From Minicystis rosea (GTDB lineage Bacteria; Myxococcota_A; Polyangia; Polyangiales; Polyangiaceae), in assembly GCA_001931535.1 (NCBI GenBank), contig CP016211.1, forward strand, positions 6,679,573 through 6,743,572: a DNA stretch of 64,000 nucleotides, written 5' to 3'. Positions 8,388-32,497 of this stretch are shown one piece after another; the first letter of the stretch is position 1; each line of letters opens with the position of its first letter. The notes beneath the pieces were generated by a model. That model was not told the DNA's origin. It saw only the letters and a list, made by a program, of their open reading frames with translations, and made no database searches. The translations under genes and the position numbers were made by a program.

Positions 8388-8595
8388 CGAAGGGGGCGTA
8401 CACTACGCGACTCGCGGCGCACGCGCATGCTCGCGCGTAGCGTCAATCGTGCGCCGACCCGCGTCAAAGTGAGGGAGAGCATGCAGCGGAGCCAAAGGCG
8501 CGTGTATGCTGCCGTCCGTTCACGCGGCGCGCGCTCGTCACTCCGCGGCGTCCGTCACGCCGCACCAGCGCCTGCGAGCAACAGAGGGATCGATC

Positions 8596-9420
8596 ATGAC
8601 GACTGCCGCGCCCCGTGAAGTGACTGGACTCGTGGCGACCCTGATCCTGCCGGCGCCCCGCGGACGCGCCGCGTCGGACGCCCATGATGCGGCGGCGGCG
8701 CTCACGCCCTCCGGCACCGGGGGCCCGACGGCCGCAGCGCACGTGCCGCAGGCGCCGCCCCCCACGCCGGCGGCCAAGCCTCCTGCGCATCCGACGGCGC
8801 CCAGCGCGGTCCCGCACGCCGCGCCCGCGGCGGAGGAGCACCACGAACCGACCCCGGCGGGGCAGGTCGTGAGCATCACCGCCCTGCGCAAGATCATGAC
8901 GCGGCTGCCGCTGGCGAAGGGGCAGCGGTACCTCGAGCCGCTCAACCAGGCGATGGCCGAGTTCCACATCACGACGCGGCTGCGCAAGGCGGCGTTCCTA
9001 GCGCAGATCGCGCACGAGAGCGGCGAGCTGCAGTGGTTCCAGGAGTTCGCCTCGGGGATGGAGTACGACATCCGCCAGCGGCCGAAGAAGGCGCTCGAGC
9101 TGGGGAACGTGAACCCCGGCGACGGCCCCCGCTACAAGGGGCGCGGGCCCATCCAGCTCACGGGGCGGAACAACTACCGCGCCTGCGGGAAGGCGCTCGG
9201 CCTCGATCTCGAAGGCCACCCGGAGCTGGCCATCGGCCCCGGCGTCGCCTTCCGCAGCGCGGGCTGGTTCTGGTCGACACACAACCTCAACACGCTCGCC
9301 GACAAGTCCGATTTCCGCGCCATCACGCGCCGGATCAACGGCGGCTACAATCACTACGCCGAACGTCTCGCGTATTACCAGCGCGCGCTCACGGTCTTCC
9401 CGGCCGACGCGCACACCTGA
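8596..9420 (+). CDS. GH19-type chitinase/lysozyme-like protein, presumed type VI effector
   Basis: A 274-residue protein starting at the ATG at 8596, preceded by AGAGGGA; the in-frame upstream extension is not used. Residues ~1-85 are an Ala/Pro-rich leader without a signal peptide. Residues ~92-270 are a glycoside hydrolase family 19 fold: FLAQIAHESGELQWFQEF carries the catalytic Glu, followed by RYKGRGPIQLTGRNNYRACG, the substrate-binding signature of the family, then AGWFWSTHNLNTLAD and ITRRINGGYNHYAERL. GH19 enzymes cut chitin or peptidoglycan glycans. It lies 13 bases upstream of the PAAR gene, so delivery by the type VI spike into a rival's periplasm is the best inference. No dedicated immunity gene is obvious. 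Confidence 0.85.
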   Translation: MTTAAPREVTGLVATLILPAPRGRAASDAHDAAAALTPSGTGGPTAAAHVPQAPPPTPAAKPPAHPTAPSAVPHAAPAAEEHHEPTPAGQVVSITALRKIMTRLPLAKGQRYLEPLNQAMAEFHITTRLRKAAFLAQIAHESGELQWFQEFASGMEYDIRQRPKKALELGNVNPGDGPRYKGRGPIQLTGRNNYRACGKALGLDLEGHPELAIGPGVAFRSAGWFWSTHNLNTLADKSDFRAITRRINGGYNHYAERLAYYQRALTVFPADAHT

Positions 9421-9433
9421 GTCGGAGCCACGC

Positions 9434-11386
9434 ATGCCTCTCGCCGGAAGGGTCGGAGATCGCGCCAAGTGTCCTTCGTGCAAGGAAGAAGGACCGTCGA
9501 AGCAGGGGTCGCCCCACCTGTTCATCAACAACCAGGCCGCACTGCGCGTGGGCGACACGGGCAAGCACAACGCCGGGGCGTGGAAGGCCACGAAGGGGAG
9601 CCGCTCGGTCTTCATCGACGGCATCCCCGCGCATCGCGTGGGCGACACGACGGATCACGGGCACGGCAGCGGCCAGCTCGTGGAGGGCAGCCCCAACGTC
9701 TTCATCGGTGATCGCGGCGGCGGCGCCTCCAAGCCGGTGGCGCACGATCGCACGCTGGTCGTGGGGGCGAAGGACGCGCTCGGGCGCAGCGTCTCGGGCG
9801 CCGAGGCGCACGTGACCTGCCCCCACCTCGACGATCGGGTGATCCCCTTCAGCGGCACCACCACCATCACGGGCCTGTGCAGCGGCTCGGCGGTGACGGT
9901 GAAGAAGGCGCTGCAGAAGGGCTCGTGGGACGCGCGCGCGACCAACGGCGAGATGCTGCCGGCGACGCACGCGCACACCGGGGAGGCGCCCGCGCCCGCG
10001 GCGTCGGCGGCGGGCGCGCCCGCCGGCAAGCCTGCGGCCCCGCCGGCAGCGCCGCCCAAGCCGGCGCCCGAGCCGGCGAAGCCCGCGGGCGCGCCCGCAG
10101 CGGCCAAGACCACGCCTGCGTCCACGCCGGCAGGCAAGGCCGCGGCCCCGCCTGCGCCGGCAGCCAAGCCCGCGGCGGCGCCTGCTTCCGCGCCGGCCTC
10201 GGCGAGCACGACCGCACCCGCGGCCAAGCCTGCGGCCGCGCCCGCGACTCAGCCGCTGAACCACGTGGTGCACGCGCCCGCGCCGCCGGCGACGCCCAAC
10301 GATCAGCACCAGGTGCACATCGTCCGGCCGACCACGCCCAACGCGCAGGTGCAGCTCACCACGGTGCACAACTGGGTCGAGCTCGTCTTCCGGGCCTTCG
10401 GCTACACGCTGCCGACGGCCGCGACGGAGATCGCCATCCTCGGCGTGCGCGAGGCCAGCCTCTCGGGCAAGGGCGGCGTCGACGCGCTGGAGGAGGCGGC
10501 CGCCAAGGGCGAGACCGACAAAGTCACGTTCACGCGCGAGACGCGCGACAAGGACTTCTCGACGGCGAAGACGTCGGAGCACGCGACGACGTACAACGAT
10601 CTGCTCTTCATCACCTCGACCGACTCGACGCCGGCCCACACGCAGAGCACCGACGTGTTCGAGTGCACCATCGACGCCGGCGCGACGGAGAGCGCGGAGG
10701 GGATCCCGGTCACGCTGGAGGGCAAGCTCTACAGCGGGACCCCCGGCTCCCACATCGCCAAGCGCTACCCCGGCAGCGACATCGCGCTCCACCTCTTCTA
10801 CGAGAAGGCCGGCAAGATGGCGCTCGCGCGCGAGGCCAGCAAGGCGTACCGCGTGTTCACCGAGATCGCGAGCGCCAAGAACGGGGCCACCAACTGGAAG
10901 TGGGCGCGCATCGAGGACAACGCGTCCATCCACATGCACTTCGGATCCGAGTCCGGCAAGGTCGGGAGCTGGTCGACGGGCTGCACGGTGCTGCACCACC
11001 ACCTGTTCGTGAAGAACAAGGCCGGCGCGAACGTGGAGGACTCGAAGGCCACCCGCTACAAGCGGTTCATGACGCTCTACCGGGGCGCCGCCAACAAGAA
11101 GAAGATCCCGTACCTGGTGGTCTCCAGCAAGTACGTGCGCTCCTACGCGGAGTGGGCGCGCTACGTCGGCGAGCACCCGGACGAGGCCAGCAAGCCGGCG
11201 AGCGTGATCCTGAAGGATCAGCTCGTGGCCGCCCCCGGCGCGCCGGGGCGCTACCTGCCGTCGTTCGTGACCGAGAAGTTCGCGAAGGACGTGGTGGCGC
11301 TGGCCGCCGACAAGGCGACGACCAAGCCGCACGCGGACAACCTGAAGTCGTCGCTGGATCTGGTGACGTTCACGCTCTCGCTCTGA
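9434..11386 (+). CDS. PAAR-domain protein with an L,D-transpeptidase-like C-terminus (candidate specialised effector)
   Basis: A 650-residue protein. Residues 1-~100 are a PAAR/DUF4150-type spike tip with the repeats PHLFINNQAALRVGDTG, SVFIDGIPAHRVGDTTDHG and GSPNVFIGDRGG. Residues ~105-165 form a small beta domain, and ~180-280 an Ala/Pro linker. The last ~370 residues are the cargo. In it SIHMHFGSES is followed by GKVGSWSTGCTVLHHH (residues ~508-523), matching the H...G...S-x-GC core of YkuD-like L,D-transpeptidases or related peptidoglycan-acting enzymes, with Cys as nucleophile. Type VI effectors with this fold alter cell-wall cross-links or NAD(P). The gene follows the GH19 gene closely and ends before a hairpin. 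Confidence 0.75.
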   Translation: MPLAGRVGDRAKCPSCKEEGPSKQGSPHLFINNQAALRVGDTGKHNAGAWKATKGSRSVFIDGIPAHRVGDTTDHGHGSGQLVEGSPNVFIGDRGGGASKPVAHDRTLVVGAKDALGRSVSGAEAHVTCPHLDDRVIPFSGTTTITGLCSGSAVTVKKALQKGSWDARATNGEMLPATHAHTGEAPAPAASAAGAPAGKPAAPPAAPPKPAPEPAKPAGAPAAAKTTPASTPAGKAAAPPAPAAKPAAAPASAPASASTTAPAAKPAAAPATQPLNHVVHAPAPPATPNDQHQVHIVRPTTPNAQVQLTTVHNWVELVFRAFGYTLPTAATEIAILGVREASLSGKGGVDALEEAAAKGETDKVTFTRETRDKDFSTAKTSEHATTYNDLLFITSTDSTPAHTQSTDVFECTIDAGATESAEGIPVTLEGKLYSGTPGSHIAKRYPGSDIALHLFYEKAGKMALAREASKAYRVFTEIASAKNGATNWKWARIEDNASIHMHFGSESGKVGSWSTGCTVLHHHLFVKNKAGANVEDSKATRYKRFMTLYRGAANKKKIPYLVVSSKYVRSYAEWARYVGEHPDEASKPASVILKDQLVAAPGAPGRYLPSFVTEKFAKDVVALAADKATTKPHADNLKSSLDLVTFTLSL

Positions 11387-11400
11387 GCGGCGCATCGCGC

Positions 11401-11424
11401 GGAGCGGGCTTATTGGCCCGCTCC
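11401..11424 (+). terminator. Hairpin after the PAAR gene
   Basis: A perfect 9-bp stem (GGAGCGGGC / GCCCGCTCC) with a 6-base loop, 14 bases past the PAAR stop codon. There is no T-run, so it may act as an intrinsic or RNA-stabilising structure rather than a classic terminator. It lies between convergent genes and could serve both. Confidence 0.5.
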
Positions 11425-11651
11425 GCTCCGCCCGTCGCCGTCACCAGGCCCGGTGCAGAAGCCCTCCACGCAGCGCACGTAGGCCACCCGCACGAAGCCC
11501 TCGATGCCGTCATCAGCGACGTCGTCGACGCGGGAAGGTGCGCGCCGAAGAGGCTGGCGCACGCCGTCTCGTTCATGACGGAGAGCTGACCATCATCGCG
11601 CACGCGCCGACTGTGGATGACGGCGCGTCGCGATGGGAAGCCGCACGAAAG

Positions 11652-14600
11652 CTACGGGCGCTTGCGCGGATCGGGGAGCTCGGGCGGCCAGATGCGGGCC
11701 TTGGCGTCCTCGGGCACGGGGTACTTGGCGTCGAGAGAGCTGTGCGTGTCGCCGAGGACCCAGTCGACATAGCCGACGTTCTTCGGGGTGGTGTGCGGGT
11801 TGACGACGTAGTGCTTCCCGTCGGCGCTGGCGTCGAACTCGCGGCCGCCGTTGTACGCGCGGACGGCGGCGCGGATGATGACGCCTTCCGGGGGCTGCGG
11901 CAGATTGGGATTGGCCTTGCGCAGCTTGGCGATCAGGCGGCGCCCCGTGGGCAGCTTGGCCGAGTTGAAGTGCTGGATGCCGCTCACCACGTTCTTCCGC
12001 CAGTCCCAGAAGATGCGCGGATGGAAGTTGCTGGGCGTGGTGATCCGATCCGCCGGCCACTTCCACTCGTCCTCCTCGGGATCCTGCTGCGCGATGCCGG
12101 TGCCGGCCGGCGGCCCGTAGCGGACCTCGCCCTTCTTGAACTGAGCGAGCGTGTGCTCCGACTCGTGGCAGAACATGCGCAGGAAGAGCCAGGCGAGATC
12201 GCCGGCGTTATCGACGATGTACTGCTCGACCTGGGCGCGCGGCCCGTTCTTGCCGAGCACCTTGAGCCCCTTCAGCACCTTGACCGCGGTGATGTTGCCG
12301 AGCTCGGGCCCGCCTTCGAAGGTGGCCTTGATCTCGAGATCACCGCCGACGATCTCCGCCGGCGTGAGGCGCACCTTCTGCTCTTGGTTGGGCTTGGTGC
12401 GCGCAGTGCCGGCCGCGTACTTGAACTCCTGCCAGCGGTAGCCCGTCGTCTTGGACGAGTGATCGCGGACGCGGTACTTGCCGGAGATGGAGAACTCCCA
12501 GCGCACCGAGCCCACGCTCGTCTCCTTGCCCTCGACCAGCACCTTGGCGAGGAGCGTGACGAGCGGCATCGAAGGCTCGGGCCCGGGGTAGGTGCCGGGA
12601 TCGATCTCGAGCGTGGTGGGGACCACCGGCGAGACGATCTCGACGGCGACGGGGACCGCGTGATCGGTCGGCTTGGCCTTCGCTGCCTGCTGCGAGGGCG
12701 TGGTGCCCACCGGGATGGCCGGCTTGGTCTCGGGCTTCGGCGCGGGCGCCGGCTTGGCCTCGGGCTTCGCGGCGGGCGCGGGCGCAGGGGCCTTCGGCGC
12801 GGGTGCGGGCGCAGGGGCCTTCGGCGCGGGCGTGGCCGGCTTGGCGGGCGGGTCGCCGATCTTGATCTGGTACGGGCCCGGCTTGTCGACGGGGATGCGC
12901 ACCTGGCCGGCACCGTCGGTGGCGTGCGGCGCCGACGTCGAGCCGTCCGCGTGCTCCAGGTGAACGCGCGCGCCCGCCAGCGGCTGGCCGCCGTCGGATG
13001 CGAGGCGGAACCACACCACCTGCTCCGCGGGCGCCGGTGCCTTGGTGGCGTCGGCGGCCTTGGTGATCTTGGGCGGGTTGATCTGCACGTACGGCGTGCC
13101 CTGGATGTTCACCTCGCCGCCCGCCACGAAGCGGACCTCGTGCTGCGCGGTCACCGTGATGTCCGGCCCGTCGAGCATGATGGTCGCGCCGCCCGTGGTG
13201 AGCGTGATGCGCTTGGCGATGATCTCGCGCCGCGTGTCCAGCGGGGTCACCTTGGGCTGGCCGATCTCGCCGGTGTTCGCCGCGGTGACGCCGGCCATCC
13301 GCACTTCGTGCATGCGGCCCGCGCTGATGGTGTCGACGGCGGTGATCTTGGTGTCGAGGTGACGGCCGACGGCGGCGGTGGTGTTGCCTTCGATCTTGTC
13401 GACCTCGGCGGCCACGACGACCTTCTCGAGATCACGCTCGGAGCGGAGCGTGACCAGCTCCTTCCCGGCCGCGTCGTCGAAGCTGAGCTCGTGGTAGCCC
13501 GAGGAGCGCGGCGTCGATCGCGTGCGCCAGGCGAAGCGCGTCTTGCCGCCGGGCAGGTTGGTGGGCGCGGGGTTCTCGGCGTCGAAGAGGCGGCCGACGA
13601 TCACCGGCTGATCGGGGTTGCCCTCGTAGAAAGAGACGAGGACCTCCTGCCCGACGCGGGGGATGGCGATCATCCCGAAGCCGGCGCCGGCCCAGCCCTC
13701 GGCCACGCGCACCCAGGCGAAGGCGCGGTCGTCGAGGGCGGCCTCGCGATCCCAGTGGAAGCGCACGCGCACGCGGCCGTGCTCGTCGGTGTGGATCTCT
13801 TCGCCGGCGGGGCCGACCACGATGGCGCTCTGCAGGCCCTCGATGCGCGGCCACGGCACGCGCCGCGGCGGGCGCACCTTGGCCGTGGCGAACGAGGCCA
13901 CGACGTGCACCGTCCAGGCCTGGTCGACGCGGCCGTCGATGTTGGTCTGCACCACCAGGAGGCGCTGATCGTGGGCCAGCTCGGGGCGCGGCGCGCCCGA
14001 GATGCTGAACACCGTGCCGGGCGAGAGGTCGACGAGGTTGGTGGTGATCTCCACGCGGCGCCGGCCCTCGCGCAGCGCCGCCTGCCGGCGCTCGGCGAGC
14101 GCATAGCCCTGCGCCTCCGAGGTGCGGGCGTAGCCGTGATCGTCGGCGACCGGCGTGTCGTTGGCCTTGTTCGCGGCGGCGGGCAGCTCGGCCAGACCGG
14201 AGCCGGGCGCGTAGGTGTAGCGCTCGAGGCGCGCCTCGCCCGGCCCCGCCTGCTCCGAGTGGTACACCACCGGGAAGCGCGGGCGGCGGAAGTCGAAGTC
14301 GGCGATGGTGACGGCGCCCGGCTTCACCTCCAGCGCGACGTGGACGTCGGCCGCGAAGGGGTGGGCGATCGTCGGGCTCGGCTCGCTCGTGAAGGGGATG
14401 CTGTGCGACCGCGGCTCGGCGCGCTCGGGCGCGTCGGTGATCACGAGCTTCCCGGGGCCCTCGATGGTCTCGTCGAAGTAGTAGCCGAGGCCCGCCTCCT
14501 CGAGCAGCCGCGAGACGAAGTCGAGGTCGGTCTCGCCGTACTGCACGCGAATCTCGTGGCGCGCCAGGTTCTCCTCGGTGACGCGCGCGGTGATCTCGAT

Positions 14601-14972
14601 GCCGTGCTCCTTGAGGAGCGCGCGCACCGTCTCCAGCGCGGTCTGGTGCTGGAAGACGCGATGGTTCGTGCGTTGCGAGAGCAGCCACAGGCGCGGGACG
14701 ATGCGCAGCGTGTAGGTCGAGAGGCCGGCGGGCTCCGCGTCGGTCTGCTCGACGAAGGAGCAGACGCCCGTCCACGAACGGCTCCCGAGCCGGCCGTTGT
14801 TGAGGTGGAGCGACGCGTCCTGACCGAGGATGCGCGTGAAGTCGAGGTCGGCGTCCGCCGACATGACGAGGAGCGCGACCTCGAAGGGCATGGAGAGGCC
14901 CTCGACGATGTCGACGCGACGGACCGAGAGGTCGCTGTGCGGAAGGGAAGGGATCTTGAGCTCGACGTGCAC
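11652..14972 (-). CDS. vgrG: Evolved VgrG spike protein with a lysozyme-like C-terminal domain
   Basis: A 1106-residue protein with a GTG start behind GAGGAG. Residues 1-~560 are the gp27/gp5-like VgrG core, including GEEIHTDEHGRVRVRFHWD and GFGMIAIPRVGQEVLVSFYE, then a beta-helix tail. After ~655 comes a transthyretin-like beta domain, then an Ala/Pro/Lys linker (~710-775) and an Ig-like segment. Residues ~920-1104 look like a goose-type lysozyme/lytic transglycosylase: FCHESEHTLAQF (Glu as candidate acid), GTGIAQQDP, NVVSGIQHFNSA and AAVRAYNGG. It would puncture and then digest a rival's cell wall. It lies 17 bases downstream of the second vgrG, so the two are probably co-transcribed. Confidence 0.88.
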   Translation of the reverse strand: MHVELKIPSLPHSDLSVRRVDIVEGLSMPFEVALLVMSADADLDFTRILGQDASLHLNNGRLGSRSWTGVCSFVEQTDAEPAGLSTYTLRIVPRLWLLSQRTNHRVFQHQTALETVRALLKEHGIEITARVTEENLARHEIRVQYGETDLDFVSRLLEEAGLGYYFDETIEGPGKLVITDAPERAEPRSHSIPFTSEPSPTIAHPFAADVHVALEVKPGAVTIADFDFRRPRFPVVYHSEQAGPGEARLERYTYAPGSGLAELPAAANKANDTPVADDHGYARTSEAQGYALAERRQAALREGRRRVEITTNLVDLSPGTVFSISGAPRPELAHDQRLLVVQTNIDGRVDQAWTVHVVASFATAKVRPPRRVPWPRIEGLQSAIVVGPAGEEIHTDEHGRVRVRFHWDREAALDDRAFAWVRVAEGWAGAGFGMIAIPRVGQEVLVSFYEGNPDQPVIVGRLFDAENPAPTNLPGGKTRFAWRTRSTPRSSGYHELSFDDAAGKELVTLRSERDLEKVVVAAEVDKIEGNTTAAVGRHLDTKITAVDTISAGRMHEVRMAGVTAANTGEIGQPKVTPLDTRREIIAKRITLTTGGATIMLDGPDITVTAQHEVRFVAGGEVNIQGTPYVQINPPKITKAADATKAPAPAEQVVWFRLASDGGQPLAGARVHLEHADGSTSAPHATDGAGQVRIPVDKPGPYQIKIGDPPAKPATPAPKAPAPAPAPKAPAPAPAAKPEAKPAPAPKPETKPAIPVGTTPSQQAAKAKPTDHAVPVAVEIVSPVVPTTLEIDPGTYPGPEPSMPLVTLLAKVLVEGKETSVGSVRWEFSISGKYRVRDHSSKTTGYRWQEFKYAAGTARTKPNQEQKVRLTPAEIVGGDLEIKATFEGGPELGNITAVKVLKGLKVLGKNGPRAQVEQYIVDNAGDLAWLFLRMFCHESEHTLAQFKKGEVRYGPPAGTGIAQQDPEEDEWKWPADRITTPSNFHPRIFWDWRKNVVSGIQHFNSAKLPTGRRLIAKLRKANPNLPQPPEGVIIRAAVRAYNGGREFDASADGKHYVVNPHTTPKNVGYVDWVLGDTHSSLDAKYPVPEDAKARIWPPELPDPRKRP

Positions 14973-14989
14973 GTTGCGCTCCTCGCCCC

Positions 14990-16852
14990 TCAGTCGCAGT
15001 TGATCTTCACGTTCGGACCGCCGCGGATGATGACGTCACCCTCGTGCGCGACGATCGTGATGTTGCCCTTGGCCTCGAGCTTGATGTCGGGCCCGTCGAA
15101 CGCGACGGTGGCCTGGCCGGTGGAGTAGACGATGTGGCGATCGGTCATCTCCACGCTGGTCGACTGCCCGCCGGCCGCGCCCACCACGATCGAGTGCTTC
15201 TGGCCTACGAAGGTGGAGTCGACCGCGCCGATGGTGGCCGAGCGGCTCTTGCCCACGGAGACGGTGCGATCGGTGCCGGTGCGCTCGACCTCGTTGGCCT
15301 TCACCAGCTTGTGCAGATCGCGCTGGGCGCGCAGGCTCACGAGCTCGGCGCCCTGCTTGTCCTCGAACATCAGCTCGTTGTACGCAGGCGACGCCGCGGG
15401 CTGCGGCGAGGAGCGCGTGCGGATGCCGCTCCTCGTCTTGTGGTCGGGGAGCTTGTACGGCACCTGGTTGAGCGCGTCGTAGACGCGGCCGATGACGATG
15501 GGCTGATCGGGGTCGCCCTCGAAGAAGCCGACCGTGACCTCCTGCCCGATGCGGGGCAGCACGATCATGCCGAAGCCCGTGCCGGCCCAGCCCTGGCTCA
15601 CGCGGATCCAGCAGGAGCTGTTCTCGTCCTGCTTGCCCTCGCGATCCCAGGGGAACTGCACGCGCACGCGGCCGTGGTCGTCGGTGTAGATCTCGTCGCC
15701 CTTGGGGCCGACCACGATGGCGGCCTGCACGCCGAGGATGCGCGGGCGCGGCGTGCTCATGGCCGGCCGCCACGGCGTGTCGGCCACCACCGCGCGCGAG
15801 GCGATCGACCACTGGCCGCCCACCGTGCCGTCGATGCGCTGCTCGAGCACGAGGAGCGCGTTCGGCGCGGCGATGCGGCTCTTGGGGTGGCCGCTCACGG
15901 TGAAGACCATGCCAGGCGCGAGGTCGAGCGCGTTGGTCTCGAAGCCCACCGACTCGCGCGGACCGCGCAGCGCATCGAGCGTGCGCTCGGCGAGGGCTGC
16001 GCCCTCTTTCTCGTCGGCGACGGCAGCGCGCTCGGCGCCGGGCCGGCCCTCGGTGAGGAACGCGTTGGGCGCGTAGCGATATTGCTCCAGCGGGGCCTCG
16101 ATGCCCTGCACCGGGCCCGCCTTGCCGAAGAGCGGGTAGGTGAGACGGCCGCGGAAGTCGAAGTCGCGCAGCGCGACCGCGCCCGGGCGGATCTCGCGCG
16201 ACACGCGCACCTTCGTCACGAAGTCGCGCGCGCTCTGGTGGCCTGGGGTCTCCAGGAAGGGCACGGCGCCGCCCGCGCGCGGCTCGGCGCGGTGGGGCTT
16301 GTCGGTGAGGATGACCTTGCTCCCGTGATCGGGCTCGTACGCGAAGTGGTACGAGATGCCGGCCTCCTCCAGGAGGCGGCTCATGAAGGCGAAGTCCGAC
16401 TCGCCGTACTGCACGCGGTACTCGAAGCGGGGGTAGACGGCCGCGTCGATCGAGAAGGCGTGCTCGATGCGCCACTCGGTGAGCAGCTTGCCCACGATGG
16501 TGGGGATGCTCGCGTGCTGGAAGATGCGGTGGTTCTGCCGCTGCGACAGGAGCCAGAGCTCGGGGACGATGCGGACCAGGTAGGTCGACATCCCCGTCTC
16601 TTCGGCCTGGGTCTGCTCGAAGTGCGAGCAGATGCCCGACCACTGCCGCGAGGCCGTGCTCCCGTCGCCTGCATGCTGGATGCGGAACGAGGCGCCCTGG
16701 CCGATGATGGTCTCGAAGTCGATGTCGTCGAGCCGCGAGAGCGCGACGATCGTGATCTCGAACGGAGCGCTCATGCGCTCACTGATCGTGAAGTGTCGAA
16801 CGGAGAGGGAATCGTGCTCCGAGGCGAACGACAGGTTCAAGCTCGACGACAT
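14990..16852 (-). CDS. vgrG: VgrG type VI secretion spike protein
   Basis: A 620-residue VgrG of standard length without an effector extension. Landmarks are the N-terminal gp27-like barrel (LSVRHFTISERMSAPFEITI), the RIVPELWLLSQRQNHRIFQH segment, the gp5 OB fold with GDEIYTDDHGRVRVQFPWD and GFGMIVLPRIGQEVTVGFFE, and the short beta-helix ending in VIIRGGPNVKINCD. VgrG trimers tip the Hcp tube and carry PAAR proteins. It is first in a two-gene unit with the effector-tailed vgrG. No tss core gene is in this window, so this is an orphan vgrG island served by an apparatus elsewhere. Confidence 0.93.
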   Translation of the reverse strand: MSSSLNLSFASEHDSLSVRHFTISERMSAPFEITIVALSRLDDIDFETIIGQGASFRIQHAGDGSTASRQWSGICSHFEQTQAEETGMSTYLVRIVPELWLLSQRQNHRIFQHASIPTIVGKLLTEWRIEHAFSIDAAVYPRFEYRVQYGESDFAFMSRLLEEAGISYHFAYEPDHGSKVILTDKPHRAEPRAGGAVPFLETPGHQSARDFVTKVRVSREIRPGAVALRDFDFRGRLTYPLFGKAGPVQGIEAPLEQYRYAPNAFLTEGRPGAERAAVADEKEGAALAERTLDALRGPRESVGFETNALDLAPGMVFTVSGHPKSRIAAPNALLVLEQRIDGTVGGQWSIASRAVVADTPWRPAMSTPRPRILGVQAAIVVGPKGDEIYTDDHGRVRVQFPWDREGKQDENSSCWIRVSQGWAGTGFGMIVLPRIGQEVTVGFFEGDPDQPIVIGRVYDALNQVPYKLPDHKTRSGIRTRSSPQPAASPAYNELMFEDKQGAELVSLRAQRDLHKLVKANEVERTGTDRTVSVGKSRSATIGAVDSTFVGQKHSIVVGAAGGQSTSVEMTDRHIVYSTGQATVAFDGPDIKLEAKGNITIVAHEGDVIIRGGPNVKINCD

Positions 16853-22004: not shown

Positions 22005-22157
22005 ATTCACGCGGCCGAGGACTTTGTCCGCATTCCCATGCGACGCACGTGAGGTGGTGGGCCCATGAGCTTGCCGGGGCGTGGGCGTAGGCGAAGCCGA
22101 CCCGAAGCCCCACATGAAGACTGGCGCGGCGCGGACGCGAGTCCCCGCCGTGTGAAT
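22005..22157. mobile_element. MITE-like element, copy A
   Basis: A 153-base non-coding element with inverted ends ATTCACGCGGC (22005-22015) and GCCGTGTGAAT (22147-22157), one mismatch. A second copy lies at about 32123-32288: the first 25 bases agree at 21 positions (both contain GACTTTGTCCG) and the right ends share GACGCG, GTCCCCGCCG and GTGAATCAG. The right end overlaps the stop codon of the MuiA-like gene. No transposase is linked. Confidence 0.6.
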
Positions 22158-24085: not shown

Positions 24086-24724
24086 CCTCTGGATTGGGCC
24101 GCGGTCGTGCGCCCTCTGGGCTCGATCGGGTCGGGTTCTCCCCCCACGAGCGTACGTCGCTCCTGTGACGCGCGAGCGCGCCGAACGATCCATCGAAGCA
24201 ACCAGCAAGCTCCTTGGCGCCCCCACGCCTTCTCGCCGCCGCTGCTCGACGAGCTCGAGCTCCGCTTGTCGCGTGGCCTCCGAACGAGGTCGGCCCAATC
24301 CAATGTTGCTCCGAACCAACGCAGCCCGAAGCTCCTCAACCATCTTCGCCTTCTTGTTCACTCACGCGCACGCGCGAGGAGATGGGCAATCGAGGGCTGC
24401 GTCACGACGGGGTATTACCAAGGACCTCCCCGGTTGCATGGCGCATACGCAGCCACTCGTGCGCTCGATTCGAACGTCGCACGGTCTCGTGTGCCTCGAA
24501 GGAGCGATGGAGTGGACGTAGGGTGGTTGTGACTTCATGCGGTGAGCACGTCCGCTCCGGCTCGCCGAGGAGAGATCGCTGCGCTTGACTTCCCGCACGT
24601 GTCGCGGCCCATTGGCCGCGGTGCAGGTGGAGCTCGCGACCTCTTCTTCGTCCCCCGAAGCAGCGGAGATGCTGCGCGAAGGCGGGCAGGCGCGCGCCGC
24701 GCACGAAAGGGCCCCGGCGGAGAG
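24086..24724. other. Gene-poor stretch with a repeat remnant
   Basis: About 640 bases between the MuiA-like gene and the second DUF2169 gene. It contains the dispersed repeat at 24309-24412 and its downstream open frame on the minus strand, which fuses without a stop to the MuiA frame. No other gene is supported. Confidence 0.5.
24309..24412 (-). repeat. Dispersed ~100-bp repeat, copy 1
   Basis: Closely similar to 30705-30803. On the minus strand both encode a short start-like segment (MNKKAKMVEELRAALVRS here, MTTKAVEEIRVALVRS there) and share ~45 bases upstream of the ATG. The two-codon length difference keeps frame, so the repeat looks like the 5' end of a gene family. Here the frame continues as PRSEATRQAELELVEQRRRE before running into the lipoprotein gene. 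Confidence 0.7.
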
Positions 24725-25840
24725 ATGAGCAGGCTCCCCGTCCCGAAGATCCCCGCGCCGCGACTCCAGCTCGTGCGCAACCTGACGCCGTTCGCGCTGT
24801 TCCAGTGCGACAAGATGGGCGTCGGCCGGCGCTTCCACGACACCGTGGTGCTCAAGGGCTCATTCGCGTTGGCCCAGGGCGTGCTGAAGATCGCAAGCGA
24901 CCAGGCGCCCATCGAGCTCGCCGACGACTACTGGGATCTCGCCGCGCCCGAGCGATCGAGCGTGAAGCGCGCCGGCGACGTGGTGCTGACCAAGCCGGGC
25001 ACCGATGTGATCATCACCGGCAGCGTGCGCGCGCGGCGGCCGCTCCGCGCCTGGGACGTGGCCGTGCGGGTCGAGGGCCGCGCAGGTGTCGTGATCGACT
25101 ACGGCGCGCGCGTCACCGGTCCGCGGGAGTGGCGCTACAGCAGTGTGCGAGGCTGGGTGATCTCCGATCCCGAGCCCACCGCCGAGGTGCCCATTCGCTA
25201 CGAGCTGGCCTACGGCGGCGCCTACCTCGATCGAAACCACGCGGCGCAGGGGGGCGCCGCGCCGCGATGGATCGTCCACGCGCCCAACCCGAGCGGCACC
25301 GGCTTCTTCGACGTGCGCGCGCTGAACACCGGCGCCACCTACCGCGCGCCCCAGTGGGAGCCGATCGGGAGGCCGGTGACCACCATCAACGAAGAAGTGC
25401 CGCTCACCGGCTTCGGCCCGATCTCCCGGCCGTGGAGCGCGCGCGTCCGCCACGTCGGCACCTACGACGCCGCGTGGGAGCAGGCGATGCGCGCCGACGC
25501 CGCGCGCGGGTTGCCGATGGACTACGCGGCCGACTTCGATGCGCGCTTCTTCCAGTGCGCGCACCCCTCGCTCGTCACGCGCGAGCACCTCCGCGGCGAC
25601 GAGACCGTGGCGCTCGCCGGCATGATTTCCGAGCCGGATCCGATCGTCCTCCAGCTCCCGGGCCTCGCGCCGCACGCCTCTCTCGTGGACGGCCGGAATG
25701 GCGTGGCGGAGGAGCGCCTGCCGCTCGACACGGTCCACGTCGATCTCGACGCCGGCGCGGTCCACCTGTGTTGGCGGCTCACGCTGGACCAGGCCAGGGA
25801 CATCCGGAGCGCCGTCCTTTTCACGCAGGAGGGAGCATGA
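24725..25840 (+). CDS. DUF2169 type VI secretion-associated protein
   Basis: A 371-residue protein from the ATG at 24725 (MSRLPVPKIPAPRLQLV); the longer frame upstream is rejected as Arg/Gly-rich. The whole protein is the DUF2169 domain: MGVGRRFHDTVVLKGSFAL, PIRYELAYGGAYLD, PLTGFGPISRPWSARVRHVG, ADFDARFFQCAHP and LPLDTVHVDLDAGAVHLCW. These proteins act as adaptors for PAAR-tipped effectors. It overlaps the next gene by four bases (ATGA), so the DUF2169, PAAR-like, effector and immunity genes form an operon. Confidence 0.93.
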   Translation: MSRLPVPKIPAPRLQLVRNLTPFALFQCDKMGVGRRFHDTVVLKGSFALAQGVLKIASDQAPIELADDYWDLAAPERSSVKRAGDVVLTKPGTDVIITGSVRARRPLRAWDVAVRVEGRAGVVIDYGARVTGPREWRYSSVRGWVISDPEPTAEVPIRYELAYGGAYLDRNHAAQGGAAPRWIVHAPNPSGTGFFDVRALNTGATYRAPQWEPIGRPVTTINEEVPLTGFGPISRPWSARVRHVGTYDAAWEQAMRADAARGLPMDYAADFDARFFQCAHPSLVTREHLRGDETVALAGMISEPDPIVLQLPGLAPHASLVDGRNGVAEERLPLDTVHVDLDAGAVHLCWRLTLDQARDIRSAVLFTQEGA

Positions 25841-26184
25841 GCGCACGTCACATCGCCGACGGAGAGGTGGCCTTCCGGGTGGTCAACGTCACGCCCGACT
25901 TCTGCCGGGTCAAGGGCCAGGTCGTGGCCTTCGAGATCTCCCGGGATCTCACACCCGAGCGGGTCAACTACGCCAAGAAGGTGAGGGCGAGGGGCTACCC
26001 CGTGCTGACCACGGACAGCGTCATCGCCGGGGTGGTGGGGAACATGGGGAGCGGCGTGCTCTCGACGGTCTCGCAGGGCGCGGGCGACGTGGTGCTGGTG
26101 GAGGGCGTGCCCAACGTCCGCGCCGAGGGGCACCCAGTCTGCCGGCACGGGGACCTGTGCCTGATGAACACGAAGAGCGGCTGA
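25837..26184 (+). CDS. PAAR-like (DUF4150) spike-tip protein
   Basis: A 115-residue protein with GDVVLVEGVPNVRAEGHPV and CRHGDLCLMNTKSG, the signature of PAAR-like DUF4150 proteins that cap VgrG. The start ATG overlaps the stop of the DUF2169 gene and is preceded by AGGAGGGAG. It has no effector extension, so the following gene probably supplies the toxin. Its length suits a stand-alone tip. Confidence 0.88.
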   Translation: MSARHIADGEVAFRVVNVTPDFCRVKGQVVAFEISRDLTPERVNYAKKVRARGYPVLTTDSVIAGVVGNMGSGVLSTVSQGAGDVVLVEGVPNVRAEGHPVCRHGDLCLMNTKSG

Positions 26185-26201
26185 CGCACCCTGGTGAGCC
26201 C

Positions 26202-27314
26202 ATGGCAGAGCCCATCTCCGAGAGCGAAGCCGCGGATCAGGCCAACTGCGTGGGCCGGATCCACACCGCGGTCACGCACGGCAACATCCGGCCCGAGATC
26301 ATGGAGGTGGTCCACAAGGGCGACGAGACCCTCTGCACGCCGAAGGGGAAGACGACCACCGCGCAGATCACGGGGGCGCTCTCGGCCATCACCAAGGCGC
26401 TCGAGCGCACCGACCTCTCGGATGCCGAGGCCAACGCCCTCAAGAGCAGCTACCTGAGCGCGTACGGCCGCGGCCAAACGGACGGGGTCATCCCTCCGAC
26501 GCTCACCAAGACCCTCCTGCAAATCGGCATGAACGCGATGGACTGGAGCGGGGGTGGCTCGGGCGTCGGTCGCGGCGCGCACGTGCCGGAGGGCCCGTCT
26601 TCGCCGATCGTGAGGACCTCCTCCCCGCACGAGCCCATCACCACGCCCAAGCCTGCGGGCGGTCCCGGCGGAGCCGGTGGATCCGAGCCCATCACCGCAC
26701 CGAAGCCCGGCGAAGCGCCCGGCGGGTCCGAGCCGCTCGCAGCACCGAAGCCGGCCGACGCATCTAGCGCCTCCGAGCCGCCGGCGCAGAAGCCGGCCAA
26801 CGCCTCCGACGGGGCCAAGCCGGACGCCGAACAGAAGCCGAACGCCGAACAGAAGCCGAACGCCGAACAGAAGCCGGCGGATGGCCCCAACGAGCCCAAG
26901 CCGAACGCCGAACAGAAGTCTTCATCCACCGCGACCCGGATCAACCGGAAGGGGAAACCGATCTCCGAAGAGCGGGCGAAGAAGGCCGAGGCCATCGATG
27001 CGCTCGGGCGTTCGCGCGAGCAAAGGGTCGCCGACCAAGTCGGCGGCAAGGTGTCCCGCGAGAGGATCGTCACGCCGATCGGATCGAGTGACATCGACGT
27101 GGTCGGCCCGAAGGGGGAGCTCATCGCGGTCGGCGGCCCGGCGAAAGCCAACGACCTCGGGAAGCTGGGGCATCAGTTGAATGTCCTGAAGCACGCGGCC
27201 GATGCACGCGGCGTCGCGGCGATGGCGGCGTTCGAGGTCGGCACCCCGCAGTCGGCCATCAATCTGGCCATCAAGAAGCTCGGCGCAGCGAACGTGTTCA
27301 CGTTCGGTCCTTGA
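26202..27314 (+). CDS. Candidate type VI effector with a nuclease-like C-terminal domain
   Basis: A 370-residue protein. Residues 1-~110 form a helical adaptor (VGRIHTAVTHGNIRPEIMEV) without a signal peptide. Residues ~130-250 are a Pro/Ala/Lys linker with an 18-base tandem repeat coding EQKPNA. The last ~100 residues look like a restriction-endonuclease-fold toxin: SREQRVADQVGGKVSRERI, then GSSDIDVVGPKGELIAVGG and LGKLGHQLNVLKHAADARGV, ending IKKLGAANVFTF. The acidic DxD and the following strand fit, but the usual ExK is written VGGPAK, so catalysis is unproven. The PAAR-like gene upstream and a small acidic gene downstream give the typical effector-immunity context. Confidence 0.7.
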   Translation: MAEPISESEAADQANCVGRIHTAVTHGNIRPEIMEVVHKGDETLCTPKGKTTTAQITGALSAITKALERTDLSDAEANALKSSYLSAYGRGQTDGVIPPTLTKTLLQIGMNAMDWSGGGSGVGRGAHVPEGPSSPIVRTSSPHEPITTPKPAGGPGGAGGSEPITAPKPGEAPGGSEPLAAPKPADASSASEPPAQKPANASDGAKPDAEQKPNAEQKPNAEQKPADGPNEPKPNAEQKSSSTATRINRKGKPISEERAKKAEAIDALGRSREQRVADQVGGKVSRERIVTPIGSSDIDVVGPKGELIAVGGPAKANDLGKLGHQLNVLKHAADARGVAAMAAFEVGTPQSAINLAIKKLGAANVFTFGP

Positions 27315-27322
27315 GGTGTTTC

Positions 27323-27898
27323 GTGGCAGAGCGATCGATCTTTCTGTACGAGGTTCGCGAAGGCGCCGATTGGCTGGGCTCGCTGGAGCGAGACCTCGGT
27401 CGCGCCGGGCTTCACCTGAAGCCGCCCGGGAGCGATCTCGTCACCCCCTACGACGACGAAGGCGAGCGGCTATCCATGTCGGAGGAGGAGCTCCGTCGCT
27501 GGGTCGACGCCGGGCACGACGCGCGCTTCTCCTTCTGGTTCGCAGCAGACCACGACGTCTATTGTCGAATCCGAGAGAGCGACGGCGTGACCGTGATCGC
27601 GCTCGGCATGGATGGCTGCAGCCGCGCCGAGATGGAGAGCCTGCGAGCCGCCATGGAGCACCGGTTCCTCTCGCGCCGGACGACCAGCGCAGGGTTTGTC
27701 TTCGATCCCGACGGCGTGACGGAGGACTACGACTGGGATCGGTTCTTCCTGGCGAAAGAGCGCCTCGATCTGTCGGTCGAAAACCTCCCCGAGGCGCTGG
27801 GCGTGACCAGGGCCGAGCTCGGTCGCTTGGTGGCCGTGCCCGCCGCCGCCGAGGTGGTCGACGATGGTGCGCTCGTCGTCATCCGCGCCGCGCGTTGA
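27323..27898 (+). CDS. Presumed immunity protein of the effector at 26202
   Basis: A 191-residue protein from the GTG at 27323 (preceded by TTGAGGT); an in-frame TTG at 27311 overlapping the effector stop is an alternative. It is soluble and acidic with DWLGSLERDLGRAG, FSFWFAADHDVYCRI and FDPDGVTEDYDWDRFFLAKE. No family is recognised. Position directly after the toxin, tight spacing and an acidic composition suit a cognate immunity protein. This is inference from context only. Confidence 0.65.
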   Translation: MAERSIFLYEVREGADWLGSLERDLGRAGLHLKPPGSDLVTPYDDEGERLSMSEEELRRWVDAGHDARFSFWFAADHDVYCRIRESDGVTVIALGMDGCSRAEMESLRAAMEHRFLSRRTTSAGFVFDPDGVTEDYDWDRFFLAKERLDLSVENLPEALGVTRAELGRLVAVPAAAEVVDDGALVVIRAAR

Positions 27899-28824: not shown

Positions 28825-30030
28825 ATGGACGTCGCGCCGCGATCGGACTGCCTGCTGGATCCGATCCGTCTCTCCGCGGCTCGCGAGACGATCGCGGAGA
28901 TCGCTTCTGCGCTGCCCATGCCTGAAGAGAGCTCGGTCGACCACTCTCTCCATCAGGGACACGCCGGGCTCGCCCTCTTCTTTGCGACGCGAGCGTGCTC
29001 CGAAGGTGCCTCGCCAACGGACCACGCGCGGGCCGTTGCGCATCTCGAGCGCGCCCTCGCTCTGCTGGTCGAAGGCGCGCACGCCCTCCACCTTGGCGAG
29101 GGAGCCGCGGGCGTCGCGTGGGCCGCGGCGCACCTCGCCGAGCTCGGGCTCATCGACGTGGACGAGGACTTCTTCGCCGACCTCGACCCGCAACTCCTCA
29201 CGTGGCTCGATGGACATGGAGCGCGCGGCTACGCCGAGCTTCTCTACGGCGTCGCCGGGATCGGCCTCTACGGCTGGAAGCGGCGCCACGCAGGCTCGGG
29301 TCGCGCGATCGTTCGAGCGGCGGTCGCCGCGCTGTCCGCGTCGGCGGTTCGCGACGGCTCGGGCGCCGTCTTCTGGCGGCGTCTGCGCGAGTCGATCGGC
29401 GACCCGGAGGCCGTCCGGTGCGGCATTGCCCATGGGATCGCAGGGCCGCTCGGGTTCCTCGGTCGCGCATCCGGCCTCGGAGACCCGGAGGCCAGAAGCC
29501 TCGTCGAGGCGAGCACGCGATGGCTTCGACCGCTTCTCGTCGACCGCGAGCAAAGCCCGAGCGCGTCAGCCGCGGAGCTCGGCGGCCGCGTCGCCTGGTG
29601 CACGGGGGATCTCGGCCTCGCCGGTGCTCTCAGGATCGCGGCGCGGGCCTGCAAGCTGGCCGAGCTCGAGCAAGCCGCGTGCGCGCTGGCGGAACGCTCC
29701 GCGAATCGCCCCACTCCGCACAGCGGCATCGGGGACGCCGGCCTCTGTCACGGCGCCTTTGGAAACGCGCATGTCTTCCATCGATGGTGGCAAGCGACAG
29801 GGGCCCCGCCGTTCGCCGATGCCGCGCTCCGATGGCTCGACCGCGGGCTCGCGCTGCGAAGACCAGGTCTCATCGCACACGCATTCACGAGCCTGGCAGA
29901 GATGTCGTCAGGGCTTTCTCCTTGGGGGCTGCTCACCGGTCTGGCCGGTATCGGTCTCGCCCTTCAGACGTTTTGTGACGCGCGTGTCCCGGCCTGGGAC
30001 GGTCACCTGTTGCTGGATCTCACGAATTGA
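28825..30030 (+). CDS. LanC-like lanthionine synthetase cyclase-family protein
   Basis: A 401-residue alpha/alpha-toroid. The repeated G-x-x-G inner helices are GHAGLALFFATRA, LHLGEGAAGVAWAA, LLYGVAGIGLYGWKR, GIAHGIAGPLGFLG, VAWCTGDLGLAGAL, GLCHGAFGNAHVF and LTGLAGIGLALQ. Zinc ligands match the family: Cys in WCTGDLG and the Cys-His pair in LCHG. LanC enzymes close thioether rings on dehydrated lanthipeptides. No lanB dehydratase is nearby, so it may work with an unlinked partner or as a stand-alone LanC-like protein. The facing small gene at 30195-30356 is a plausible substrate. Confidence 0.85.
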   Translation: MDVAPRSDCLLDPIRLSAARETIAEIASALPMPEESSVDHSLHQGHAGLALFFATRACSEGASPTDHARAVAHLERALALLVEGAHALHLGEGAAGVAWAAAHLAELGLIDVDEDFFADLDPQLLTWLDGHGARGYAELLYGVAGIGLYGWKRRHAGSGRAIVRAAVAALSASAVRDGSGAVFWRRLRESIGDPEAVRCGIAHGIAGPLGFLGRASGLGDPEARSLVEASTRWLRPLLVDREQSPSASAAELGGRVAWCTGDLGLAGALRIAARACKLAELEQAACALAERSANRPTPHSGIGDAGLCHGAFGNAHVFHRWWQATGAPPFADAALRWLDRGLALRRPGLIAHAFTSLAEMSSGLSPWGLLTGLAGIGLALQTFCDARVPAWDGHLLLDLTN

Positions 30031-30194
30031 TGGGCGCCTCCGCTCACGCCGTTCGATCGAGACGCTGAGCGAATCGCCGCTCTGGCGGAGGAGATCGCCT
30101 GCGCGACGCGGACACGTCGTCCACGGCATCGGGCTGCAGAATGCGGGTGCAGGAGCCGCCGGAGATCGGCAGCTCACTGCACCCGTTATGACTG

Positions 30195-30356
30195 TCAGTC
30201 GACGGTGGTATCGGGATAGCAGTGGACGAGGGTGCCCTGCCCGTACTCATCGATCACGCCTTCGCGAATCTGGGTACGGATGCGACGCACCTCGAGCCGA
30301 AGGCCCTTCTTCTGCTCGACCTTCGAATCCTGGCTGGCCTTGTCTTTGTTGTCCAT
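30195..30356 (-). CDS. Candidate RiPP (lanthipeptide-like) precursor peptide, 53 residues
   Basis: A complete 53-codon gene with a strong AGGAGA site five bases before the ATG. The peptide starts MDNKDKASQDSKVEQKK, continues GLRLEVRRIRTQIREG, and ends VIDEYGQGTLVHCYPDTTVD. A charged helical leader, a Leu/Arg-rich recognition-like stretch, a Gly near the expected cleavage point, and a short tail with one Cys and three Thr fit a leader-core plan able to form one thioether ring. It faces the LanC-like gene across 164 bases. The gene structure is seen in the sequence; the RiPP role is inference from the neighbour and layout. A longer overlapping frame at 30254-30475 is less coherent. Confidence 0.6.
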   Translation of the reverse strand: MDNKDKASQDSKVEQKKGLRLEVRRIRTQIREGVIDEYGQGTLVHCYPDTTVD

Positions 30357-30704
30357 GGGATGTCTCCTGATGGTTGTCCGAATTGCCGATCAAGTCGTCC
30401 GAAATGGCTCTCGAGGGCGCTCATGACGAGTCGCCTACACAACTCGTGTGGATAGGTCCCGAGCTCAGGCGCCAATTCTTCCTACATGCCGATTTGGAGG
30501 GCAACTGTTAGATCCTGCCATCCAATCGTGAGGGGCGTGTAGCCGTTGCAAACGGGTTCGCGAAGCCATGCAAGGAGCCAGTGCTCCTCACCGGAGTCCT
30601 GCGTGCATTCAGGCTTGTATACCGGCGAAGCAGCCGTGCCGTTTCAACGGATAGGCACCTGGAGAACTCCACTGCTCCACGATCCATGGCTCCATATCCG
30701 CGAG

Positions 30705-30803
30705 CTCCGAACCAGCGCAACCCGAATCTCCTCAACCGCCTTCGTCGTCATCGCGTCCTCACGCGCGAGGAGATTGGCCATTGAGGGCTACGCCACGGCG
30801 GGG
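30705..30803 (-). repeat. Dispersed ~100-bp repeat, copy 2
   Basis: Counterpart of 24309-24412, mostly identical. On the minus strand it begins a 35-residue frame (MTTKAVEEIRVALVRSSRIW...) that stops early, so this copy looks decayed. Confidence 0.7.
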
Positions 30804-32076: not shown

Positions 32077-32497
32077 GGCGCGGACGATACACGCTCGCCG
32101 GTCGCGTCCAGCCTCGTTTCTCCTTCGCACGGCTGATGACTTTGTCCGTGATCGCGTATCGTCGAGGCAACGAACGCCAGGTCCGAAGCGGCGAAACGCC
32201 CTGGAAATTGCGGGTGGATCGCGGGGTGGTGGGGCCCCGACGGCAAAGTCTGCGGGGCGGCGGGGACGCGCGTCCCCGCCGCGTGAATCAGGTCGGACGG
32301 CGAGCGACCACCAGCGGCTCGATGGTCGCGACGAGACCAACACCCACGAGGGAACGGACACCTCGCGCACCAGTGAATCGCGTGCATCCACGCCCGCGAA
32401 ACGGCCTTCGGCGTTGGGAATGTGCCGTGTCGCCGCCGTCACGCGAGAGCGAGATAATCTTTGCGTCGTCTCCCTCCGCAGCGCGACGGACGCCCCC
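32077..32497. other. Intergenic stretch with MITE-like copy B
   Basis: About 420 bases between divergent genes. It contains the 166-base element at 32123-32288; the remainder (32289-32497) should hold the promoter of the gene at 32498. No gene is supported. Confidence 0.5.
32123..32288. mobile_element. MITE-like element, copy B
   Basis: About 166 bases, related to the copy at 22005-22157. Left end TTCGCACGGCTGATGACTTTG, right end GCCGCGTGAAT, preceded by the palindrome GGGGACGCGCGTCCCC. The left inverted end has drifted more than in copy A. Non-coding. Confidence 0.6.

Follow-up and report, generated by a model that had tools for sequence, protein, structure and literature searches.

In this study, we propose that a LanC cyclase gene and a facing small precursor gene of Minicystis rosea make up half of a class I lanthipeptide pathway distributed over two loci, with one LanB and one LanC that probably serve both precursors in trans. 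Both enzymes are of the ordinary class I kind; what stands out is that duplication and reciprocal loss have separated LanB from LanC, while each daughter locus kept its precursor. We lean towards an obligate two-locus system, in which one LanB and one LanC process two precursors and neither locus forms rings alone. The first-pass annotation had suggested that the gene pair could be an incomplete or split RiPP system, or a new way of using LanC. The word 'split' is now specifically backed by a precursor paralogue beside a LanB, by leader relatives and by reciprocal gene remnants. A new use of LanC is not needed, since the window (the whole stretch of DNA analysed, 64,000 nucleotides) once carried a LanB and its LanC keeps the canonical catalytic residues.

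Cyclase, precursor gene and sister locus

The strong LanC family call made earlier is borne out by sequence and fold. Pfam LANC_like covers the protein along the whole domain (E=1.8e-26), and an AlphaFold model built from a 14-sequence alignment (pLDDT 83, pTM 0.88) has the class I cyclase MadC (8byk, TM 0.72) as its top PDB match, with NisC (2g02, TM 0.69) also among the fold matches. All residues expected of a working class I cyclase are there (H203, R255, C259, C308 and H309), and four of them, H203, C259, C308 and H309, do not vary when the protein is aligned with 13 relatives. The yardstick was NisC, of which we take H212, R280, C284, C330 and H331 to be the zinc and acid-base residues. 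The window thus encodes the LanC-fold cyclase that belongs to class I lanthipeptide biosynthesis. LanCs of the window type in other families often stand directly upstream of a LanB; a pattern scan of genome contigs using the window LanC found 0 relatives.

The precursor gene is convergent with LanC, so that the 3' ends of both genes face each other (Table 1). Its AGGAGA site lies six bases ahead of the ATG, and its composition is coding-like (GC2 0.34, GC3 0.81). The peptide gave no match in NCBIfam or the other family libraries searched.

Table 1. Features of the precursor and LanC locus. Positions refer to the window; L016 denotes the region of the sister locus at 5.29 Mb.
Feature	Position	Strand	Description	Basis
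LanC cyclase gene	28825..30030	+	401 aa, intact	Pfam LANC_like, ligand residues, fold match
LanB C-terminal remnant	30001..30043	-	versus LanB end, L016 12441-12483	86% over 43 bp
Decayed LanB remnant	30033..30134	-	versus LanB codons, L016 12122-12223	76% over 107 columns, frameshifts
Precursor 3'UTR	30139..30194	-		48/56 nt same as in paralogue
Class I lanthipeptide-type precursor gene	30195..30356	-	53 aa	paralogue beside LanB; leader-profile matches near LanB in other genera
Predicted core	30198..30257	-	VIDEYGQGTLVHCYPDTTVD	diverged from paralogue from codon 41 on
Cys46 codon	30219..30221	-	sole cysteine	aligns with the single core Cys of both paralogues
Leader	30258..30356	-	codons 1-33, ends GLRLEVRRIRTQIREG	leader/paralogue conservation
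Precursor 5'UTR	30357..30393	-	AGGAGA at 30363-30368	practically identical to that of paralogue

The genome is a single contig of 16,040,666 bases, and a peptide search within it returned two further copies, at 5.29 Mb and (weaker) at 15.67 Mb. The close paralogue at C1:5291098 shares 83% protein identity over residues 1-41 (E=1.2e-16). Its locus (C1:5291098-5294464) lies 1.42 Mb from the window, and a full-length LanB starts within about 0.1 kb downstream of this sister precursor. Both LanB domains are readily recognised (PF04738, E=6.9e-84; PF14028, E=1.3e-41), and R91/R95/T97, H793/R795/R797, E837/R840 and H982 are invariant in 4 relatives. The genome therefore encodes a full-length LanB with glutamylation and elimination domains, and the window locus itself has none. 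This agrees with the first-pass annotation, which had noted the lack of a nearby dehydratase and suggested looking for one elsewhere; two LanB genes were found in the genome. No LanC stands beside the 5.29 Mb LanB, and no transporter or protease genes were recognised beside the window's gene pair or at the 5.29 Mb locus. The usual but not obligatory arrangement of lanA, lanB and lanC in one cluster is thus replaced by two distant loci.

Genome-wide, we counted two LanB, two free-standing LanC that passed the cut-off, a single LanM-type protein and, for this leader type, three precursors. The precursor region as a whole exists in exactly two copies. The second LanB/LanC pair sits together at 15.67 Mb (L017) with its own precursor. 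By elimination, the 5.29 Mb LanB and the window LanC are therefore each left partnerless locally.

Gene remnants and divergence of the precursors

The minus strand of the window is collinear with the plus strand of the 5.29 Mb locus. The precursor and its untranslated regions (window 30393-30139 versus L016 9061-9312) are 87% identical, and the LanB scar between precursor and LanC amounts to about 130 bp. The internal LanB remnant reaches a local score of 49 versus a control maximum of 31 in 2967 control comparisons. The terminal remnant overlaps the 3' end of LanC in antisense and keeps the stop in register (AEAPINS-stop in the window, AKAPIQS-stop in the L016 LanB); its best non-self match genome-wide is the 3' end of LanB (E=5.5e-7). 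The genome-wide DNA search recovered the terminal remnant only, as the internal piece has no 11-nt exact seed, and support for the latter comes from the control test of local alignments.

The 5.29 Mb locus carries the counterpart scar. Just past the LanB stop, in antisense and in frame, lies a remnant of the LanC C-terminus, KPGPRALALTS-TRR-GHLLLD, corresponding to RRPGLIAHAFTS-(36 residues)-GHLLLD in the window LanC. At about 40 bp plus 19 bp, this remnant is short, and its local score of 30 exceeds the control maximum of 24-25 (4000 controls) by a modest margin; the adjoining L016:12540-12780 has no likeness to LanC above controls. The internal LanB remnant and the LanC remnant were assessed by DNA-level local alignment with controls; tblastn of the whole LanB and LanC against the opposite locus gave low-complexity noise only.

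Since each locus bears the scar of the gene kept by the other, we infer that one cluster was duplicated and that a complementary enzyme was lost in each copy. The richness of this genome in duplicates, with paralogous genes making up 44% of the coding potential (PMC8436480), likewise counts for a cluster duplication. The ancestral cluster would have had the order precursor, LanB and, in the opposite orientation, LanC, the last two genes overlapping at their 3' ends, and would have been duplicated before the reciprocal loss. The nearest LanB relatives (that of L017 and that of the Polyangiaceae genome G026) have as their partner a LanC of another, divergent type. The case for an ancestral pairing with a window-type LanC is therefore built on the remnants. 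An intact ancestral cluster was not found in any relative searched.

The two precursor copies have diverged unevenly. The first 40 codons carry 8/120 nt changes and 7/40 residue changes, and the leader substitutions are conservative (D/N, N/D, A/V, Q/H, Q/E, D/E). From codon 41 on, 14/36 nt differ, in addition to a one-codon (3-nt) indel that leaves the frame and the stop preserved, while the 3'UTR differs at 8/56 nt. The core thus diverges more than the leader (p=1e-5) and more than the 3'UTR (p=0.011); a conserved leader with a diversified core is the usual pattern of RiPP precursors. Each core has one Cys, 3 or 4 residues past a Ser/Thr (TLVHC in the window, SDLC in the sister), and the combination of a conserved leader with a core of Ser/Thr plus Cys is that of a class I precursor. 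The likeness of the 5'UTRs ends at 30393, 37 bp upstream of the start codon, and the two precursors therefore stand under different upstream sequence.

Several earlier statements on the small gene can be judged from this comparison. That the frame with its AGGAGA site is a real gene is supported by the 83% identical second copy, the kept frame and the coding-like composition. The proposed division into leader and tail coincides, within a few residues, with the boundary between conserved and variable parts of the paralogues. Codon changes that are not protein-like had been named as grounds for rejecting the gene, and the conservative leader changes and the kept frame are the opposite of this.

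The likeness between window 30258-30393 and L016:9061-9196 is uneven as well: the 5'UTR and codons 16-35 are nucleotide-identical, synonymous sites included, in contrast to a difference of about 14% in the 3'UTR. Gene conversion or strong nucleotide constraint may be at work here.

Leader relatives, proposed pathway and alternatives

A leader profile built from five sequences was run over 318 Polyangia genomes. Besides the own genome, it clearly or weakly matched G285 (whose peptides are part of the profile), G270 and G026, all Polyangiaceae; matches below the top eight were mostly parts of longer frames and were left out. The peptide itself, searched in 59 relatives at E<=0.01, was found in the own genome only, so that distant leaders came to light only with the profile; plasmids gave no match. 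In G285 and G270, the leader peptides lie on the contig of LanB, within about 9 kb. In the case of G026, two tandem precursors stand at the end of contig C9; by inspection, this end shares about 127 bp with the start of C26, the place where LanB begins. The reading of the window peptide as a lanthipeptide-type precursor is thus strengthened by the paralogue beside LanB and by leader relatives near LanB in three Polyangiaceae.

A Pfam search found no LanC in G285 and G270, so that two genomes hold LanB and this leader without LanC. The small frame had been expected to be conserved in relatives and not independently of lanC homologues; nothing found counts against its conservation, with the qualification that the leader family follows LanB, not LanC, in the relatives. 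Across the four genomes, cores are Cys-free in the LanC-less G285 and G270 and Cys-bearing in the LanC-holding G026 and M. rosea. The direction of this pattern, drawn from a small set of four genomes and in part from the G285 peptides that went into the profile, would fit a LanB acting on this leader and a LanC needed only where a Cys gets ringed.

The LanB-associated precursors of the same leader type are located at L112:14709-15360 in G270 and at L113:8442-8777 and L034:741-1040 in G285. They carry the leaders LTLSVKRIRTHVRGG and LDLKVRRVLKTSLRGG and Ser/Thr-rich, Cys-free cores, and may become ringless dehydroamino-acid peptides.

In the proposed pathway, the single retained LanB of this type would bind the near-identical leaders of both precursors and dehydrate core Ser/Thr by glutamylation and elimination. 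The zinc-dependent window LanC would add the lone core Cys to Dha or Dhb, so that each product receives a single (methyl)lanthionine ring: T42-L-V-H-C46 in the window and S-D-L-C in the sister. For the window core, a Thr42-to-Cys46 (TxxxC) ring is possible. A protease, for which neither locus showed a gene, would remove the leader near REG, and cleavage after REG is suggested by the position of GG/EG/AG in the relatives. The product peptides would derive from VIDEYGQGTLVHCYPDTTVD minus water and VIEEYGQLSDLCDTGTGAH minus water. Trans action, ring topology and cleavage site, as well as export, expression and activity of the products, are predictions from sequence.

The chief alternative is decay of one or both halves. 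We regard it as unlikely that the window pair is a dying remnant, with a silent or useless LanC and precursor, and that the 5.29 Mb LanB yields either a dehydrated peptide untouched by LanC or no product. Decay would be in line with a lanB that is already a scar in the window, with two loci of which neither is complete or flanked by recognised transporter or protease genes, and with two relatives that use LanB and this leader family without any LanC. Yet, 401 LanC codons and both precursor frames have stayed open, with intact active sites, beside a lanB worn to about 130 bp, and both Minicystis cores retain one Cys 3-4 residues past Ser/Thr despite their strong divergence. The window half could be at an early stage of decay.

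A shared enzyme pool, in which the LanB of L017 or both LanBs serve the window precursor and LanC, seems decidedly improbable. The 5.29 Mb LanB has its closest relative in L017 (44%), and the L017 precursor has the leader core L.LEVRRIR in common, but its leader is only 50% identical to that of the window over about 28 residues, whereas the 5.29 Mb copy reaches 83% (residues 1-41). L017 moreover owns a precursor and a LanC, and the scars link the window to the 5.29 Mb locus. A new use of the fold, with LanC working independently of any LanB-type dehydratase, is scarcely credible: the window holds no LanB and LanC-like genes without a nearby dehydratase are common in genome surveys (PMC7268733), but a LanB scar lies between both genes, a LanB with the same leader type is encoded elsewhere in the genome, and the zinc and acid-base residues are kept, unlike in the motif-less free-standing LanCs of Bacteroidales (PMC10352776).

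The two-locus pathway is similar to known class I systems (nisin NisB/NisC, MadC) in its separate full-length LanB (PF04738+PF14028), its canonical zinc LanC and its leader-core precursor with Ser/Thr and Cys. It differs in the distance of 1.42 Mb between LanB and LanC, in the own precursor of each, in the single-Cys cores and in the leader motif L.LxV[KR]R...[RK].G. Reliance on genes elsewhere in the genome is also seen for unclustered lanthipeptide proteases (PMC8960859) and for Nif11/prochlorosin-type precursors far from their LanM (PMC7268733). However, in those cases the protease or extra precursors are remote, whereas here the two core modifying enzymes are parted and the scars are visible. 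A dehydratase-less neighbourhood is shared with the free-standing LanC of Bacteroidales (PMC10352776) and with 'unclassified' LanC loci (PMC7268733), but the former are without zinc motifs, in genomes without LanB (PMC10352776), whereas the window LanC has kept its motifs and a matching LanB is encoded elsewhere in the genome. No description of a reciprocal LanB/LanC split was found in a non-exhaustive search of the open-access literature, subscription papers being outside its scope.

Genome mining classes lanthipeptides from the genes adjoining LanC. In one survey, 3052/12705 LanC-like proteins were unclassified, and 1392 of these 3052 remain once contig edges and probable non-lanthipeptide proteins are discounted (PMC7268733). 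The present locus is a concrete example of how LanC and LanB genes that look like orphans can be the two halves of one pathway, legible from scars and a common leader. It is also a natural test case for the trans action of LanB and LanC and for cluster subfunctionalisation in one of the largest bacterial genomes. The pairing of orphan LanC and LanB loci via leader identity could be extended to other genomes.

Other lanthipeptide loci and neighbouring genes

The 15.67 Mb region (L017:9418-16285 on C1) is a complete second class I cluster. The ligand motifs of its LanC are unusual (FCNG and LCCGG, not WCxG and CHG), the Cys of its precursor stands before the only nearby Thr, and an ORF that lies between its precursor and its LanB (11141-13273) matched nothing in Pfam. 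At 1.41 Mb, L018:7537-13867 (C1) is a class II cluster. It comprises a LanM of 1100 aa (DUF4135 and LanC domain), a candidate precursor of the double-glycine type at 10885-11232 (-) and a gene at 11594-13867 that probably encodes a C39-peptidase ABC transporter. This LanM has its own candidate precursor, and no link between it and the precursor of the window emerged.

Type VI secretion cargo genes occur next to the LanC locus (window 5988-16852 and 24542-27898), coding for VgrG-type spikes, PAAR, Tox-PAAR-like and DUF2169 proteins, with a possible effector/immunity pair at 26193-27898. Pieces of a dispersed intergenic repeat, 80-92% identical, lie at 32163-32287, 22006-22054 and 22122-22156 of the window, and the same repeat is found at L017:11094-11248, beside the 15.67 Mb precursor. 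The window also contains another pair of repeats, at 24369-24412 and 30760-30803.
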